NCBI GenBank assembly: GCA_040902225.1
Contig: JBBDXT010000007.1
Coordinates: 320,346 to 384,345 of the forward strand
From: Chloroflexota bacterium
GTDB taxonomy: Bacteria; Chloroflexota; Limnocylindria; QHBO01
Reading direction: 5' to 3'
DNA length: 64,000 nucleotides
Shown here piece after piece: positions 6,736 to 64,000 of this stretch. Position 1 is the first letter of the stretch; the number at the start of each line of letters is the position of its first letter. The notes beneath the pieces were generated by a model. It was given only the letters and a program-made list of their open reading frames with translations, ran no database searches and was not told where the DNA came from. A program made the translations under genes and the position numbers.

Positions 6736-9052
<2,317 letters not shown>

Positions 9053-9053
<1 letters not shown>

Positions 9054-9463
9054 TGCCGCTCAAGCTGGAGATCGTCAGCCCCGAGCGGATGGTCTACGAC
9101 GACGACGTCGACATGGTCATCGTGCCGGGCCGCAACGGTCAGCTCGGCATCCTGCCGCACCACACGCCGCTGATCAGCTCGCTCGGCGTTGGGGAGCTGC
9201 GGATCAAGAAGGGCGGGAGCGAGGAGTCGATGCTCATCAGCGGCGGGTTCGTTGAGGTGCGGCCGGACAAGGTCATCGTGATGGCCGACCTAGCGGAGCA
9301 CTCTGACGAGATCGACGAGGCCAAGGCCATCGAGGCGCGCAAGCGCGCCGAGTCGGAGCTTGAGCAGTCCAAGGACCCGGTCGACATCGCCCGCGTACGT
9401 GCCGCTCTCCAGACCGCCTTGATGCGGGAGCGGATCGCCACCCGCCGGCGCTCGCGGGGCTGA
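9053..9463 (+). CDS. atpC: ATP synthase F1 subunit epsilon
   Basis: A 136-residue rotor subunit. The N-terminal beta-sandwich is recognisable by IVSPERMVYDDDV and the GQLGILPHHTPLIS motif; the C-terminal part is a charged two-helix region that in other bacteria can inhibit ATP hydrolysis. It is the last gene of the ATP synthase set. A GC hairpin (CGGGGC-TGAG-GCCCCG) straddles its stop codon but has no T-tract. Confidence 0.95.
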
Positions 9464-59385: not shown

Positions 59386-60741
59386 TCAGGCCAGCAGACG
59401 GGCAAGGATCGCCACTCCGTACCCGGCCAGCAGGAGCAGGCCGACGTACACGTGGAGCTTGATATTTGTCGCCATGATGGGCATCAGCGCGTACGGTTGG
59501 GAATAGAACTGGCTGAGGCCCGTGTAGACGCGCCAGACGAGGGGCGCCGCGAGCAGCGCCAGCAACGTTGCCACTGGCAACAAACCGATCGCGACGCCAC
59601 CCACAATGACCGCAAACGCCAGGACAGCTGAGGCGAGGTAGATCCCCGTCACGACGCCCGGCGCGAGGCGCACCGGAAGCGTCCGCTTGCCGGCGGCCGC
59701 ATCGCCGACCCGATCCGGGATCTCGTTCACGTACAGGATCAGCGCCACCAGGATCGCCACCGGCACGGATGCGATGGCCGCCTCCCAGCTCAGGGAACCG
59801 GTCTGCACGACATACGCGCCCAGCAGCATGATCGGCCCGAAGCCGATCGCCACCGCGATTTCACCGAGCCCCCGGTAGACGAGCTTGAGCGGCGGAGCCG
59901 TGTAGGCGAGTCCCAGGGCGATGCCCGCCAGCCCGATCCCCAACAGGGTCGCCGAATCGGTCGCCCAGACCAGCACAAGGCCGATCGCGGCAGCCCCGCC
60001 GAAAAGCACGGCCGCCAGGGTGATGAGCTGTCGAAGCGTCAGCAGGTCGTAGATCAGGACTCGCGACCCGCCGCTGAAGGGGGTGGGGTTCACGTTCGCC
60101 TCATCGGCGCCGGAGAGGGTGTCGAAGATGTCATTGCTGACGTTGATGGCCAGGTGTGCCAGCGCCGCTCCGACGACGGTGAGGAGCGCGAGCCACGCGT
60201 TGAACGCGCCACCGCGGGCGGCCACGGCAATCCCCAGCAGGACTGGCACGGCGGTGGCCGATAGAAACGGAAGCCGCGTGGTGCGCAGGAAGAGCCAGCC
60301 CAGGGAGAGCCGCGGCCGGATGGTCCGCCCCTTCTCCTCGGAAAGCTGGGCCAGGTAGCGGCGAGACTGAGGCACGGAGCGCTCGGAGTATTCAAAGAAG
60401 GGGATCTCGCTCTCGTCCCAGCCCCAGGCGCGGGTCGGGGTGAACGTGACCGACCCATCCTGACCGCGGCTGGCCGAGCCCCACAGCTGCACGTAGCGCC
60501 GCTCGTCGTAGCCTTGGCCCGGCGTGGGGCGAATATGGCTGCCGAGGACGTTGATCGGGCGATCGACCGGGATGGCGGCCTCGTCACCGGCAGTTGCCCG
60601 CAGCACGACCACGCCACGCCGCGTGTCAACCGAAAAGTCGGTGGCGACGCTCATCGGAAAGCCAGCGAGATCCACCCAGCTGACCACCACGAAGGGGTAC
60701 CCGGCCAGCTTCTCCAGGTGGCCCGCCTCGACCGGAGGCAT
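59386..60741 (-). CDS. Fusion of a flavin-split-barrel-like domain with a UbiA prenyltransferase
   Basis: A 451-residue protein. Residues 1-145 resemble the pyridoxamine-oxidase-like split barrel (PFVVVSWVDLAGFPMSVATD and YVQLWGSASRGQDGSVTF). Residues 150-450 form a UbiA-type membrane prenyltransferase with about eight helices, the first Asp-rich motif in NVSNDIFDTLSGADEAN and the second in NEIPDRVGDAAAGKRTLPVRL; the pattern is closest to MenA. Such enzymes attach polyprenyl chains to aromatic acceptors for quinone synthesis. Its start overlaps a separate split-barrel gene by one base. The fusion is unusual, and the substrate is unknown. Confidence 0.82.
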   Translation of the reverse strand: MPPVEAGHLEKLAGYPFVVVSWVDLAGFPMSVATDFSVDTRRGVVVLRATAGDEAAIPVDRPINVLGSHIRPTPGQGYDERRYVQLWGSASRGQDGSVTFTPTRAWGWDESEIPFFEYSERSVPQSRRYLAQLSEEKGRTIRPRLSLGWLFLRTTRLPFLSATAVPVLLGIAVAARGGAFNAWLALLTVVGAALAHLAINVSNDIFDTLSGADEANVNPTPFSGGSRVLIYDLLTLRQLITLAAVLFGGAAAIGLVLVWATDSATLLGIGLAGIALGLAYTAPPLKLVYRGLGEIAVAIGFGPIMLLGAYVVQTGSLSWEAAIASVPVAILVALILYVNEIPDRVGDAAAGKRTLPVRLAPGVVTGIYLASAVLAFAVIVGGVAIGLLPVATLLALLAAPLVWRVYTGLSQFYSQPYALMPIMATNIKLHVYVGLLLLAGYGVAILARLLA

Positions 60742-61229
60742 CAGGCGACCTCGTGCCGGGGCGCGTTGGTCACCGCCGGCGGGTGGCTCGTGTCACCGCC
60801 GGGCCAGAACAGGCACTGCTCCGGCGTGATCTCAATCACTGCGCGTTCGAAGAAGAGGGGCAACGCGACCCTCATCCTCAGGAACGAGTCGATCACCGGC
60901 TCCTTCTTCCGCCACAGGTCAAGAATCAACCGTTCCCACTGGCTGTGCGGGTCGTCCTCGATGATGCGGGCAATCCCCTTGATGGTGGCGCGGTCGGTCA
61001 GGCCTCGCATGGCGACCGGATCGGTGAGCGAGACGGAGACATGCGGGTCCCGCTTGATGTGCTCCAGCTTGCGGCTGAACAGGGTGCTGGAGTGCATCAG
61101 AATCCGTTCGCCGTCATAGAGGGGGATCAATGGGTGCGTGATTGGCTGACCGCGGGGGCCGATGACGGTGAGCTCGCCCACGAGGGCCTCGCCGAGCAGT
61201 CGCTCGACCGGCTGGGGCAACCATCCCAT
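60741..61229 (-). CDS. Pyridoxamine 5'-phosphate oxidase-like flavin/F420-binding protein
   Basis: A 162-residue split-barrel protein. ATG 61229 is preceded at 9 bases by GAAGGAGG; ATG 61250, which overlaps the upstream stop by ATGA, is the alternative. Motifs include GELTVIGPRGQPITHPLIPLY and LEHIKRDPHVSVSLTDP, typical of this family, whose members reduce substrates with FMN or F420. It is coupled (TGATG) to the split-barrel/UbiA fusion gene, so the two likely act in one pathway. Confidence 0.85.
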   Translation of the reverse strand: MGWLPQPVERLLGEALVGELTVIGPRGQPITHPLIPLYDGERILMHSSTLFSRKLEHIKRDPHVSVSLTDPVAMRGLTDRATIKGIARIIEDDPHSQWERLILDLWRKKEPVIDSFLRMRVALPLFFERAVIEITPEQCLFWPGGDTSHPPAVTNAPRHEVA

Positions 61230-61246
61230 TGAGCGGCCTCCTTCGC

Positions 61247-64000
61247 TCATTCTGTGTGCAGCGCCCCGGCGCGTTCCAAGTGGGGCGAGGCACCCAGGGA
61301 CCGATAGGTGGCGATGGCCTCCTGCAGCAGCCGTTTCCTGTCGGCCTCGTCGCTCACCAGAGCCAGCGCTTCCTGCGTGCGGGCCGCCTCGAAGACATGC
61401 GGGAAACCCTGGAACGCGGCAAGGGCGCGAGAGAGCGATGCATGGGCGCCAGCCGTGTCGCCGCCCGCGGCAAGCGCCTGGCCCATCGCGCGTTCGGCGA
61501 CTGCGTTCAGCAGCGGATCCGCATGGCGGATCGGCGCGATCCTGTCCATCAGGGCTGGAAGCTCGTTCCACGCGCCTCGCTCGACCAGCGCGGCGATCAT
61601 CGCCCGAGCCGCGTCGTGCCAGCGCCAGCCAAGCGCCCGATTCAACACGTCGCCTGCCAGAGCCTCCCCCTCCTCCCGCGCGCCGGCCGTCACCAGCGCT
61701 TCGGCGAGCTGTCCCTCGACCGGCCCGGGACGGTCCTCCCATGCCTTCGAATGACGCGCGGCATCGAGGGCGCGCTGAGGGTCGCCACGATGCGCAACCA
61801 CCATTGCTCCGAGGCTCGGGCCGGACTGTACCGCGATGCAGCGCACGCCGGCACCAAGCTCGGGGTTGGTCAGGTGCTCGGCCAGAAGGGTCTCGACCCG
61901 GTCCCAGTCGCCGAGCCAGTACGAGGTCAGCATCAGGCTGTAGGTGCCGTGACCCTGGTCGTGTGCCGAGAGACGCCGGCCCAGCTCGTAGGCCTGGGTG
62001 GATAGCTGCTCGGCGCGCGCGGGATCTCCGGTCAGCCATAGCAGCTTCATCGAGAGGCTGTGGTACCACTGCGCTCGCGCGGCCGGCCGCTCGATCTTCT
62101 CCAGCATCGGCAGCGAGGGTTCCAGGGCGGCCAGCGCCCCTTCCGGATCGTCCTCCATCATGTACAGGTCGCTGAGGGTGTCTGCGACCACCGTCATCAG
62201 GTTTGGATCGCCCAGCCGCTCGGCGATGCGCTCCGCCTCGTGCGCAGCATCCAGCCGCGGCTGCATCGGCCCAGAGACCTCTTCCACCAGCCGCCGCCGG
62301 TTCAGGATCATTGCGGCATCGGCAGCCAGGAGCCAGGCGCGCTCACGCTCATCCGTCGCCGCCTCCAGGCCCTCGCGGATGAGTCCCTGGATGACGTCGA
62401 AGTCCGGCTCCTTGACGAATGCCCCGCCGCGGTGTGCGGCCATGCCTGCCGCGTGACGGGCGAGAGCGGCTACGCGGCTCCGATCCGCCGGGTCCTTTCG
62501 CGCGATCTCGAGCGCGGACATGGATGCGACGAGCATCGCGTCGCCGTGGAATGCCGTTTCATGATCCCGCGCGATTTGCTCGAGCGCATCGAGACGCTCC
62601 GTGTCGCTGGTGGCCAGCTCCAGTGCCTGCTCGTGCAGCTCCACGGCGCGCTCGACTGCGAACCGATGCCGGGCCGCGCGGCCGGCCGCAAGGAGCGCTG
62701 CCAGCGCGTGCCGGCGTACAACCTCTCGCCCATCCGCATCGTCCATCCAAGCCAGGTCGGCCCCGTCGCCACGGATCGCCGCCCAGTAGTGAGAGGCGAT
62801 CAGCTCGGCGAACTCATCGGTGCGGTCGCTGACCAGCTCGGCGATCCACTCGGCGACGGCAGCGTGGGCTCGGGCGCGCCTGGCCTTGGGCAGGGTGCCG
62901 TATGCGACGTCACGGGTCAGCGCGTGCTTGAACAGGTACTCGGTCTGCCCGGCGAGGGTAGTGGTGGGTCGAACCAGGATCAGCCCCTTTCGTTCGAGCC
63001 CCCCCAGTGACGACTCGAGGTCCGTGCCTCCGACCGCGCCCTCCAGCGCGGCTGCCCAGAAGATGCGGCCCACGACGGCAGCCTCCTGCAGCACTCGTCG
63101 CTCCTCCGGCTGAAGCGCGTCGATCCGGGCGCCCAGCAGCGCCTGCACGCTGTCCGGGATCTTCACTTCACCGATGGTCTGGGTCGCGCGCCACCGCTCG
63201 CCGTCCCGTTCCAGAGCTCCCTCGTCGATCAGCCGCTGCAGGATCTCCTCCACGAAGAACGGATTGCCATCGGCCTTGGCGACGATCTCGGCTTGGAGCC
63301 CATCAGGCAGCTCCGCCACCGCCAGCAGGCGGTCGACGAGGTCGTTGCTCTGGTTGTCGGTCAGCGGGCGAAGCGAGATCGCAACCGCGTCCTGGCCGCC
63401 GGGTCCGAACCCCGGATGCTGGTCGGCGAACTCCGGTCGCGCGGTGGCCACGATCAGGAGCGGCCCTTCGGTACGCCGCGCGATCTGGGCCAGCATCTCG
63501 ACCGCCGGCTCGCCCGCCCAGTGCAGGTCTTCGATGACCCAGATCGCCGGGCCGGCGGCGGCATAGGCGGTCGCGAAGCGCGGCCAGGCACGCGCCAGGT
63601 CCTCCGCGCTCGCCGGGCCGGCGGCCGCCTCGGGCGTTTCGTCGAGTCGAATTCCCACCGTCGTGGCCAATGCCGCGGTCGTCATCTGTGCATCCTCGGG
63701 TGCGAGCCCCAGCGGCTCCAGGATCTCGGCCACCCCGCTCCGCAGCCGGTCCTTCACGACCTCGCTCGTCTCGTCGAGACCGATCTCGCAGGCGCCGCGC
63801 AGGATCTCGCCCAGCGCCCAGTAGGTGATGCCGTGCCCGGCGGAGAGGCATCGGCCGCGCAGGACCCGAATCCCGGAGTCGGAACCCTGCGCCGAGGCGA
63901 CGAACTCATTGGTGAGGCGGCTCTTCCCGATGCCGGCCAGTCCGTAGATCACGACCAGGCGAGGCTTTCCGCTCTCGATCGTCTCGTCCAGCAGGCCGGT
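61247..64000 (-). CDS. Large AAA-type ATPase with TPR repeats, N-terminus beyond the window
   Basis: The frame is open to the right edge; 917 codons are visible. The Walker A motif GLAGIGKSRL sits 22-31 codons from the edge and the Walker B region is IWVIEDLHWAG. Next come a STAND/AAA helical region (LISHYW-like), a winged-helix-like segment, and about 500 residues of Ala-rich TPR-like helices up to the stop. This layout matches proteins with an N-terminal adenylate cyclase or LuxR-type HTH domain, but that part is not visible. Function is probably signalling or transcriptional control. Confidence 0.85.
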   Translation of the reverse strand, partial: TGLLDETIESGKPRLVVIYGLAGIGKSRLTNEFVASAQGSDSGIRVLRGRCLSAGHGITYWALGEILRGACEIGLDETSEVVKDRLRSGVAEILEPLGLAPEDAQMTTAALATTVGIRLDETPEAAAGPASAEDLARAWPRFATAYAAAGPAIWVIEDLHWAGEPAVEMLAQIARRTEGPLLIVATARPEFADQHPGFGPGGQDAVAISLRPLTDNQSNDLVDRLLAVAELPDGLQAEIVAKADGNPFFVEEILQRLIDEGALERDGERWRATQTIGEVKIPDSVQALLGARIDALQPEERRVLQEAAVVGRIFWAAALEGAVGGTDLESSLGGLERKGLILVRPTTTLAGQTEYLFKHALTRDVAYGTLPKARRARAHAAVAEWIAELVSDRTDEFAELIASHYWAAIRGDGADLAWMDDADGREVVRRHALAALLAAGRAARHRFAVERAVELHEQALELATSDTERLDALEQIARDHETAFHGDAMLVASMSALEIARKDPADRSRVAALARHAAGMAAHRGGAFVKEPDFDVIQGLIREGLEAATDERERAWLLAADAAMILNRRRLVEEVSGPMQPRLDAAHEAERIAERLGDPNLMTVVADTLSDLYMMEDDPEGALAALEPSLPMLEKIERPAARAQWYHSLSMKLLWLTGDPARAEQLSTQAYELGRRLSAHDQGHGTYSLMLTSYWLGDWDRVETLLAEHLTNPELGAGVRCIAVQSGPSLGAMVVAHRGDPQRALDAARHSKAWEDRPGPVEGQLAEALVTAGAREEGEALAGDVLNRALGWRWHDAARAMIAALVERGAWNELPALMDRIAPIRHADPLLNAVAERAMGQALAAGGDTAGAHASLSRALAAFQGFPHVFEAARTQEALALVSDEADRKRLLQEAIATYRSLGASPHLERAGALHTE

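Follow-up and report, generated by a model that had tools for sequence, protein, structure and literature searches.

The gene pair and its split-barrel partner

Two genes lie one behind the other in the window, the 64,000-nucleotide stretch of Chloroflexota DNA that was analysed here; both genes and all features described below are on the minus strand. The upstream gene, B (60741..61229), codes for a PNPOx/FDOR-type split-barrel protein of 162 aa, as judged by Pfam, AlphaFold2, Foldseek and VIA. The downstream gene, A (59386..60741), codes for a protein of 451 aa in which a predicted N-terminal split barrel is joined to a UbiA prenyltransferase; for A the same four methods were supplemented by an alignment of 49 sequences (A1). 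Read directly from the sequence were a ribosome-binding site, AAGGAGG (61237..61243), with a spacing of 7 nt to the ATG of B, and a TGATG junction (60739..60743) at which the stop codon of B and the start codon of A share one base. The first-pass annotation had described a barrel gene beside a barrel-UbiA fusion, and both genes are indeed present at this position.

Pfam assigns B to PNPOx_N (35.9 bits against a cut-off of 28.1, E 1.1e-8) and to Pyridox_ox_2 (28.4 bits, cut-off 27). The AlphaFold2 model of B (pLDDT 89.5) matched 2i02 (3.9e-10), 1rfe (5.1e-9) and 3f7e (1.3e-8) in Foldseek, and VIA aligned it with 3f7e (Z 14.0, rmsd 3.1, 128 aligned), with the F420-bound 4qvb (Z 13.8, rmsd 3.2, 135 aligned) and with 5jab (Z 13.8, rmsd 2.4, 122 aligned). 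With a PNPOx_N score over the cut-off and a split-barrel fold, B is a member of the PNPOx/FDOR split barrels, and sequence and model make it a probable flavin- or F420-dependent oxidoreductase. Residues 47-54 (61068..61091) form a phosphate-binding-type motif, SS.L.S.K, in an alignment of 47 sequences in which S47, L50 and K54 are invariant. We take this motif to be the equivalent of the FMN-phosphate site of PNPOx. The fold is that of the FDOR/PNPOx proteins Rv1155, Rv2991, MSMEG_3380, MSMEG_6526 and Rv2074, but B differs from them by three helices at residues 94-127 that carry family-conserved residues, and its scores stay under the cut-offs of the NCBIfam F420 subfamilies (Rv1155_F420 44.4 vs 79.05, Rv3369 35.3 vs 125.3, Rv2061 21.9 vs 84.9).

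Domain organization of A

The UbiA domain of A (residues 149-451, 59389..60297) was assigned by PF01040 (5e-30) and by a VIA match to UBIAD1. The Pfam score of 105 bits over residues 165-409, against a cut-off of 34.2, makes A a member of the UbiA superfamily. In both aspartate motifs, N200..N203-D204..D207 (60121..60144) and N339-E340..D343...D347 (59701..59727), all eight named residues are invariant in 49/49 sequences. A linker of residues 111-148 (60298..60411) leads from the barrel to the first membrane helix; according to the alignment E120 is invariant and P114 almost so, and W108-D109-E110 stand just ahead of the linker.

The barrel domain (residues 1-110, 60412..60741) was delimited by the strands of the AlphaFold2 model and by split-barrel matches in Foldseek. 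The model, built with 49 sequences (pLDDT 90.3), has one helix and seven strands across residues 6-109, with the strands at 18-23, 29-34, 36-39, 44-47, 62-73, 77-92 and 98-109. When the whole model was submitted to Foldseek, ranks 1-13 were UbiA structures and rank 14 was 5jv4, a split barrel with bound F420 (E 2.4e-3, probability 1.00), with NimA, Rv2074, 6eci and 3fkh among the further matches. The Foldseek output gave no aligned range, and we place the split-barrel matches on the N-terminus because the remainder of A is helical. The barrel makes up a quarter of the modelled chain and was modelled within the whole of A, not alone. On this basis the N-terminus is predicted with moderate confidence to be a split barrel, which agrees with the fold that the first-pass annotation had suggested. 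The VIA-align list for A covers residues 143-451 only, filled by the UbiA domain, and therefore carries no information on the barrel.

The barrel is not recognisable from its sequence, as Pfam, PDB-sequence and profile-profile searches gave nothing usable. Pfam found no significant match in the N-terminus, and the barrel stays under the Pfam PNPOx cut-off, with 2/49 members matching PNPOx_N weakly (best E 0.0033). A PDB sequence search returned 9 weak matches with no split barrel among them, and a profile-profile comparison with B reached a probability of 17%. The 49-sequence alignment contains a conserved, family-specific stretch, HI.P.P..G...RR (residues 69-82, 60496..60537), that is kept in bacteria and archaea; G77 and R81 are invariant, and H69 and I70 occur in at least 90% of the sequences. 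The S-x-K phosphate motif kept by B is absent from those columns of the A barrel that are conserved in at least 80%, so the barrel may bind no cofactor of its own. In this it is unlike the FDOR/PNPOx reductases, whose fold it shares more loosely than B does. A cofactor site formed jointly by the A barrel and B is possible.

Spread of the fusion and its neighbourhood

The complete barrel-UbiA fusion was found in 48/51 loci from Chloroflexota and Nitrososphaeria-type archaea, where the identity of the relatives of A goes down to 39-44%. Dropped from the alignments were two loci truncated at the 5' end (L050, L052) and one without a barrel (L054). The fusion is also present in a one-contig genome of 3.3 Mb (G205), and the B-A pair is carried by Ca. 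T. tengchongensis (Thermoflexus; L036). Its occurrence on 48 contigs refutes a confinement to one assembly and confirms the expectation that the same fusion exists in other genomes. Gene B lies directly upstream of A in 46/51 loci in two domains of life, a conservation that rules out a chance pairing; it adjoins A in 46 of the 48 full fusions, and the remaining two sit at contig ends. The gap between B and A, calculated with start codons of the relatives picked by script, lies between -8 and +32 bp in 38 of the 46 loci that have B; the other 8 show wider gaps of 131-320 bp.

Neighbour clustering left only A and B in most loci, and an extended operon shared by every clade was rejected. Other neighbours vary by clade, and no upstream ring-building gene was found near B-A. 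The widest other cluster, with neighbour names read from the sequences instead of family searches and gene calls made by script, is a mixed group of ABC-ATPase-like genes (cluster 2, 25 loci). Both domains of life also have, several kilobases off, another UbiA-like gene (cluster 3, 14 loci), and on either side at 4-8 kb PheS/PheT-like genes (clusters 14 and 15, 8 loci).

Relation to MenA and UBIAD1

The closest solved structure to A is UBIAD1, the menaquinone-4 synthase (8djk_B: Z 27.6, rmsd 3.0, 271 aligned), of which the aligned chain has no barrel and the identity is about 22-24%. UBIAD1 is eukaryotic and uses reduced menadione as acceptor. The best NCBIfam matches of A are MenA models, whose cut-offs A does not reach (NF004751 143.5 vs 264; TIGR00751 84 vs 102.15). 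Four MenA proteins of the same class, all encoded near MenD, exceed both (294-321 and 211-235, respectively). In the UbiA tree, which is unrooted and includes one very long row (L108), the A fusions and the MenD-associated MenA proteins fall into separate clades with supports of 99/99 and 100/100. Thus A shares with MenA the UbiA fold and both aspartate motifs, but differs by its additional N-terminal barrel, its partner B, its separate clade and the lack of MenD in the genome. MqnP, the prenyltransferase of the futalosine route, belongs to the UbiA family like A, but MqnA/D scored over the cut-off in 0/47 genomes, including all 28 distinct barrel-UbiA genomes. We therefore rejected a plain MenA or MqnP. 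The source genome has three UbiA genes, of which only the fusion is MenA-like; a separate CtaB-type gene is present.

Quinone genes in the carriers

Known quinone pathways were represented by MenD and MqnA/D only, with MenB added in the source genome. MenD scored over the cut-off in 0/28 distinct barrel-UbiA genomes, and a single match of MqnA/D below the cut-off was seen (G309, E 7.1e-4). NuoH of complex I was found in 27/28 of these genomes by PF00146, a family that also takes in related hydrogenase subunits; in a genome without the fusion (G128) the NuoH match is weaker (97 bits). In a phylum sample of 301 genomes MenD occurs in 109 and a strong fusion in 14, with an overlap of 0 (Fisher 0.0027, shared ancestry ignored). 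Within one genus, g7, both states occur in different genomes, MenD only (G037, G176) and fusion only (G243, G292). Three weak partial matches of A3 (G081, G198, G293; 37-60 profile positions) were left out of the counts, two of them (G198, G293) from genomes with MenD, and G304 was dropped as a duplicate of G243 with the same coordinates.

CofD failed as a discriminator of the fusion genomes. PF01933 mixes two proteins and matches 47/47 genomes, those with MenD included, so the fusion genomes are not singled out by these near-universal genes. The true CofD of the source genome is L056 (TIGR01819 311.8, cut-off 257.45), and F420 is therefore probably available; L055 looks like YvcK by size and sequence. 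Judged from the score split in the source genome, the lower-scoring CofD-like class appears to be missing in two genomes with the fusion (G096, G302) and in two without (G112, G152).

A second fusion of a reductase with UbiA

A luciferase-like (LLM) oxidoreductase fused to UbiA was found in 9 of 11 same-class genomes that have neither MenD, MqnA/D nor the barrel fusion. It occupies one frame in 11 genomes and is split by a contig edge in G104. Among 12 further long-frame UbiA candidates, 10 are LLM-UbiA and one is a barrel fusion (L116, G307); in L124 (G028) no LLM domain was seen and the A-derived UbiA model gave no match. The LLM domain (PF00296, 5.9e-41), which forms the N-terminus of this fusion, is of the type of Mer and other LLM F420-dependent oxidoreductases, but scores below the Mer cut-off (PRK02271, 131.4 bits vs 276) and those of the other matched F420 models, and is joined in frame to UbiA. 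Both F420H2-dependent reductase superfamilies described in Actinobacteria thus appear joined to a MenA-like UbiA.

A UbiA fused to either redox domain (barrel or LLM) occurs in 32/34 genomes without MenD and in 0/5 genomes with MenD (Fisher 3.6e-5, shared ancestry ignored), the MenD genomes all being from one family (f2) and their lack of LLM-UbiA being read from frame lengths and fetched loci, not from a whole-genome LLM search. These 39 genomes are the UbiA-searched part of the 47; one of the six with MenD (G120) and one of the 12 with neither (G160) were left out. Three genomes (G243, G292, G305) carry both fusions together, which a simple replacement does not need, and neither fusion is present in G008 and G144, which also lack MenD; both observations speak against the quinone reading proposed below.

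No other split-barrel fold fused to a membrane prenyltransferase was found in the searches of this analysis. In the CC-licensed literature we found no paper joining UbiA with pyridoxamine 5'-phosphate oxidase or a split barrel, and among the matches listed none with both luciferase-like and UbiA. For the quinone genes of Caldarchaeum, Chloroflexi, Aigarchaeota and Thaumarchaeota, no title or abstract start in that literature names either fusion.

Discussion

We propose that B-A is a reductase-coupled membrane prenyltransferase unit for a respiratory quinone that is made by a route other than Men or futalosine, and give this reading a probability of roughly 45%. Together the two proteins would sit at the membrane as a single unit and add the lipid tail to the quinone. 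By a pairing of barrel with barrel, B may dock on the degenerate barrel of A, over the opening of the UbiA domain on the cytosolic side. There it would hold the ring acceptor, a quinone or a precursor that is likewise poor in electrons, in the reduced, electron-rich state, with F420 or flavin as the putative cofactor, and the UbiA domain would then couple the reduced ring to a polyprenyl diphosphate. The same job could be done in related genomes by the F420-type LLM reductase, whose UbiA partner domain belongs to a separate lineage.

As complex I is present while the tested quinone markers are absent, the fusion may belong to an undiscovered quinone route, and the exclusion of MenD points to the quinone ring. 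The quinone pathway put forward by the first-pass annotation is thus supported indirectly, by these two observations, by the likeness of the UbiA domain to MenA and UBIAD1 and by LLM-UbiA; its other proposal, a prenylated cofactor, was backed by none of the tests made. According to PMC5449967, the reduction of menadione by an FDOR-A took place mainly at the alkene and not to the quinol, which we count against a reading with the quinone ring as target.

The A barrel could instead be regulatory or structural, that is a haem, flavin or redox sensor or a scaffold for B, with prenylation not coupled to electron transfer. The split-barrel GluTR-binding protein docks in this way on glutamyl-tRNA reductase, and the structural matches include this protein as well as split barrels that bind haem. 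The missing S-x-K motif fits as well, but B keeps the motif and adjoins A in 46/48 full fusions, and another MenA-like UbiA is joined to LLM, an oxidoreductase fold unrelated to the split barrel, so that we regard a regulatory or structural barrel as unlikely. Quite unlikely, too, is a reductase that acts on the isoprenoid tail or another prenylated lipid by F420H2- or flavin-dependent saturation of the prenyl chain during or after transfer. It would link reduction and prenylation equally well, and other UbiA enzymes make ether lipids and haem O. However, the UbiA domain of A resembles MenA and UBIAD1, a separate CtaB-type gene is present in the source genome and the MenD exclusion points to the ring. 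FDOR families have been suggested as fatty acid saturases in PMC8498797, which is in favour of the tail.

A divergent MenA acting on DHNA or a related naphthoate, scavenged from neighbours or made by unrecognised divergent genes, seems distinctly improbable. The top NCBIfam models are MenA, and partner organisms may be needed by those Chloroflexota that are known from MAGs. Against this, A is below every listed MenA cut-off while the four same-class proteins near MenD pass, it stands in a clade of its own, and scavenging leaves the two reductase fusions unexplained. Finally, nearly all matching records are metagenome-assembled genomes, which would favour an assembly artefact, but a fusion that is an artefact or has no functional consequence is refuted by its conservation on 48 contigs, in distant archaea and in the one-contig genome G205, and has hardly any probability left.

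Beyond the reductase-coupled unit itself we suggest, tentatively and with more doubt than belief, a new quinone route common to Nitrososphaeria-type archaea and Chloroflexota. In this route the attachment of the tail would be coupled to F420H2-dependent ring reduction, and split-barrel FDOR and TIM-barrel LLM reductases would each have become fused, with the same role, to a MenA-like UbiA lineage of their own. According to a survey of 26,264 bacterial genomes from 2026 (PMC13386864), most lineages that lack quinone pathways belong to the Bacillota and Chloroflexota; its section 5 holds that further quinones may await discovery, and the survey cites work on a new quinone pathway. If true, our proposal would fill part of this gap for respiring Chloroflexota without known quinone genes. 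With a conserved gene pair and a parallel fusion in genomes bearing complex I, the open quinone question becomes testable on named genes.

Gene organization and occurrence

Both genes lie on the minus strand. B (60741-61229; 162 aa), a split-barrel gene, is located 5' of A (59386-60741; 451 aa), which encodes a split barrel joined to a UbiA prenyltransferase, and the B stop codon overlaps the A start codon by one base (TGATG). A clear ribosome-binding site precedes B. This confirms the first-pass annotation, which had reported a barrel gene next to a barrel/UbiA fusion here. An AAA_16 ATPase gene (61247-64000, minus strand; weak TPR match below the Pfam cut-off) ends 17 bp upstream of the B start and runs off the window; among the genes called in the retrieved loci, a homologue at the equivalent place was seen in L004 only.

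A single scan with A across the genome collection returned 51 loci, among which near relatives are over-represented because short peptides from A were used as queries. The whole fusion is encoded in 48 of them; in L050 and L052 it is truncated where the contig stops, and L054 (Altiarchaeales) carries a UbiA without barrel. Bacterial carriers are Chloroflexota, including Dehalococcoidia and Thermoflexus. Archaeal carriers, labelled Aigarchaeota, Caldarchaeum, Calditenuaceae, Nitrososphaeria, Thermoproteota and Geothermarchaeota, account for 13 of the 49 rows of the A alignment (window included). B is found upstream of A in 46 of the 51 loci, with a gap of −8 to +32 bp in 38 and of 131-320 bp in the other eight; for the two full fusions without B (L019, L028), the contig ends 58 and 409 bases from their start. 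If the barrel profile is applied to a phylum sample of 301 genomes, 17 matches are obtained, 14 strong (E ≤ 1.4e-31) and three weak and partial, and the fusion occurs in five of the seven own-family genomes listed. In the archaeal locus L046, ETF alpha- and beta-like genes (7644-9364; names from sequence) are placed divergently upstream of B; the clusters of these genes also include L040, L043 and L045, and L040, L045 and L047.

Fold and conserved residues

B is a PNPOx-type protein above the Pfam cut-off. Its predicted structure (pLDDT 89.5) strongly matches FMN- and F420-binding split barrels (Foldseek E to 3.9e-10). The VIA comparison, in which many top rows are tied and haem-binding barrels also occur, gave Z 14.0 for MSMEG_3380 (rmsd 3.1, 128 residues) and Z 13.8 for F420-bound Rv1155 and Rv2074. 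S47, L50 and K54 are kept in 47 of 47 aligned rows, with S48 and S52 nearly invariant; these residues correspond to the FMN-phosphate site of PNPOx.

The UbiA domain of A covers residues 165-409 (Pfam), and the N-terminus showed no recognisable family in any sequence search made. The model of A (pLDDT 90.3, pTM 0.79) places one helix and seven strands ahead of the membrane part. Foldseek ranks 1-13 are UbiA structures and split barrels follow from rank 14 on, led by F420-bound MSMEG_6526 (E 2.4e-3, prob 1.00). The predicted fold and these matches bear out the first-pass reading of the N-terminus as a split barrel. The S47/K54-type phosphate motif of B is absent among the conserved alignment columns of the A barrel, which has its own stretch (H69-I70..P72...G77...R81), together with W108-D109-E110 and E120, kept in bacteria and archaea alike. 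A putative cofactor could possibly be shared at the B-A interface. The UbiA aspartate motifs (N200..ND204..D207 and N339E..D343...D347) are kept in 49 of 49 rows, and this invariance makes a working prenyltransferase likely.

Relation to MenA and to quinone pathways

The best NCBIfam models for A are MenA, all below cut-off (143.5 versus 264; 84 versus 102.15), whereas four proteins encoded a few kb from MenD in the same class exceed both MenA cut-offs (294-321 and 211-235). When 46 UbiA domains were placed in a tree, the barrel fusions grouped in a single clade (21 rows, support 99/99) and the five MenA proteins encoded near MenD in a separate one (100/100). Closest to the barrel clade among the remaining rows (92/90), on a long branch, is the Altiarchaeales UbiA (L054:8825-9730; 301 aa, neither barrel nor B neighbour), possibly an unfused relative.

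The own genome, 99.4% complete, has three UbiA genes. A model built from the UbiA domain of A matches neither of the other two, so that the fusion is the sole MenA-like gene found there. One, of 309 aa, has PRK12884 (48.5 bits) as its sole NCBIfam match at E ≤ 1e-10. The other is a CtaB-type 606-aa frame (L001:502-2322; G000:C4:33597 region); since its N-terminus reads as CtaA-like, one CtaA-CtaB protein may carry out haem A synthesis.

Pathway markers were MenD and MqnA/D, plus MenB in the own genome only. There, MenD and MqnA/D had no match and MenB had sub-cut-off matches only, as expected of other crotonases. The comparison set comprised 47 genome handles: 29 carried the fusion (28 distinct, G304 duplicating G243), and the other 18, from the same class, did not. 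MqnA/D exceeded the cut-off in none of the 47; MenD did so in 0 of 28 fusion genomes versus 6 of 18 others. NuoH, the complex I marker, was found in 27 of 28 and 17 of 18, respectively, with a weak match in G128. In the phylum sample MenD occurs in 109 of 301 genomes and in none of the 14 with a strong fusion match (Fisher 0.0027, genomes counted as independent despite kinship); two of the three weak barrel matches lie in MenD genomes. Within one genus (g7), G037 and G176 have MenD without the fusion, and G243 and G292 the fusion without MenD.

A second redox-UbiA fusion

In G243, a 723-aa frame (L112:2057-4225; G243:C56) combines a luciferase-like (LLM) oxidoreductase as N-terminal half with one of the UbiA proteins as C-terminal half; the best NCBIfam model for the LLM part is the F420 enzyme Mer, below cut-off. 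The fusion is intact in 11 genomes (G243, G064, G152, G112, G292, G192, G088, G305, G200, G080, G128; loci L112-L115 and L117-L123) and is interrupted by a contig edge in G104 (split across L125/L126). These genomes are without MenD and nearly all belong to the same class. LLM-UbiA forms its own clade in the UbiA tree (93/79), and no B homologue was found in the stretches retrieved around it.

UbiA genes were searched in 39 genomes. Among the 34 without MenD, 23 carry the barrel fusion (three also LLM-UbiA), nine LLM-UbiA alone and two neither; the five with MenD showed neither fusion (Fisher 3.6e-5, genomes counted as independent despite kinship). The two exceptions, G008 and G144, have complex I, no MenD and no MqnA/D above cut-off. 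They carry another UbiA clade (L099, G008:C5:105500-112500; L127, G144:C19:90500-95000; with L098, L103, L128, L129), of which L098, L099 and L103 score highest with the NCBIfam model PRK05951, below its cut-off.

Cofactor and possible mechanism

In Actinobacteria, F420H2-dependent reductases stem from two superfamilies, LLM and split-barrel FDOR (PMC5449967), and a review describes further F420-dependent families elsewhere (PMC8498797). The strongest hint at F420 as the coupled cofactor is that both folds occur fused to MenA-like UbiA where the genome lacks MenD. A true CofD (2-phospho-L-lactate transferase; L056:1297-3543) adjoins an LLM-type oxidoreductase, as named from sequence, so the own genome probably makes F420. 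CofD-like genes are common in fusion and non-fusion genomes alike.

UbiA enzymes alkylate electron-rich rings. A reductase at the cytosolic face of UbiA could hold a quinone-type acceptor reduced at the moment of prenylation; alternatively, it would perform a ring reduction required before or after prenylation. In reductions with F420H2, FDOR enzymes are reported to be faster on quinones than on the other compounds tested; in the only quinone reaction whose product was examined closely, however, that of menadione with an FDOR-A, it was the alkene that was reduced (PMC5449967). The first-pass proposal that reduction and prenylation are linked is supported in part: gene architecture, conservation, motifs and distribution stand as observed, and substrate, cofactor, barrel pairing and product of B-A we infer.

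UbiA enzymes, split barrels and LLM enzymes each belong to a kind already known; in the open papers searched we found no description of either fusion, and the parts consulted of PMC5671600 and PMC5797428 contain nothing on it. For Thermoflexus hugenholtzii, genes for NADH:quinone oxidoreductase, succinate dehydrogenase and cytochrome c oxidase are reported, with menaquinone mentioned, in the sections seen, in a figure legend only (PMC8129789). According to a 2026 survey, most lineages without quinone pathways belong to Bacillota and Chloroflexota, and other quinones possibly await discovery (PMC13386864). The fusions provide named, testable genes for this documented gap.
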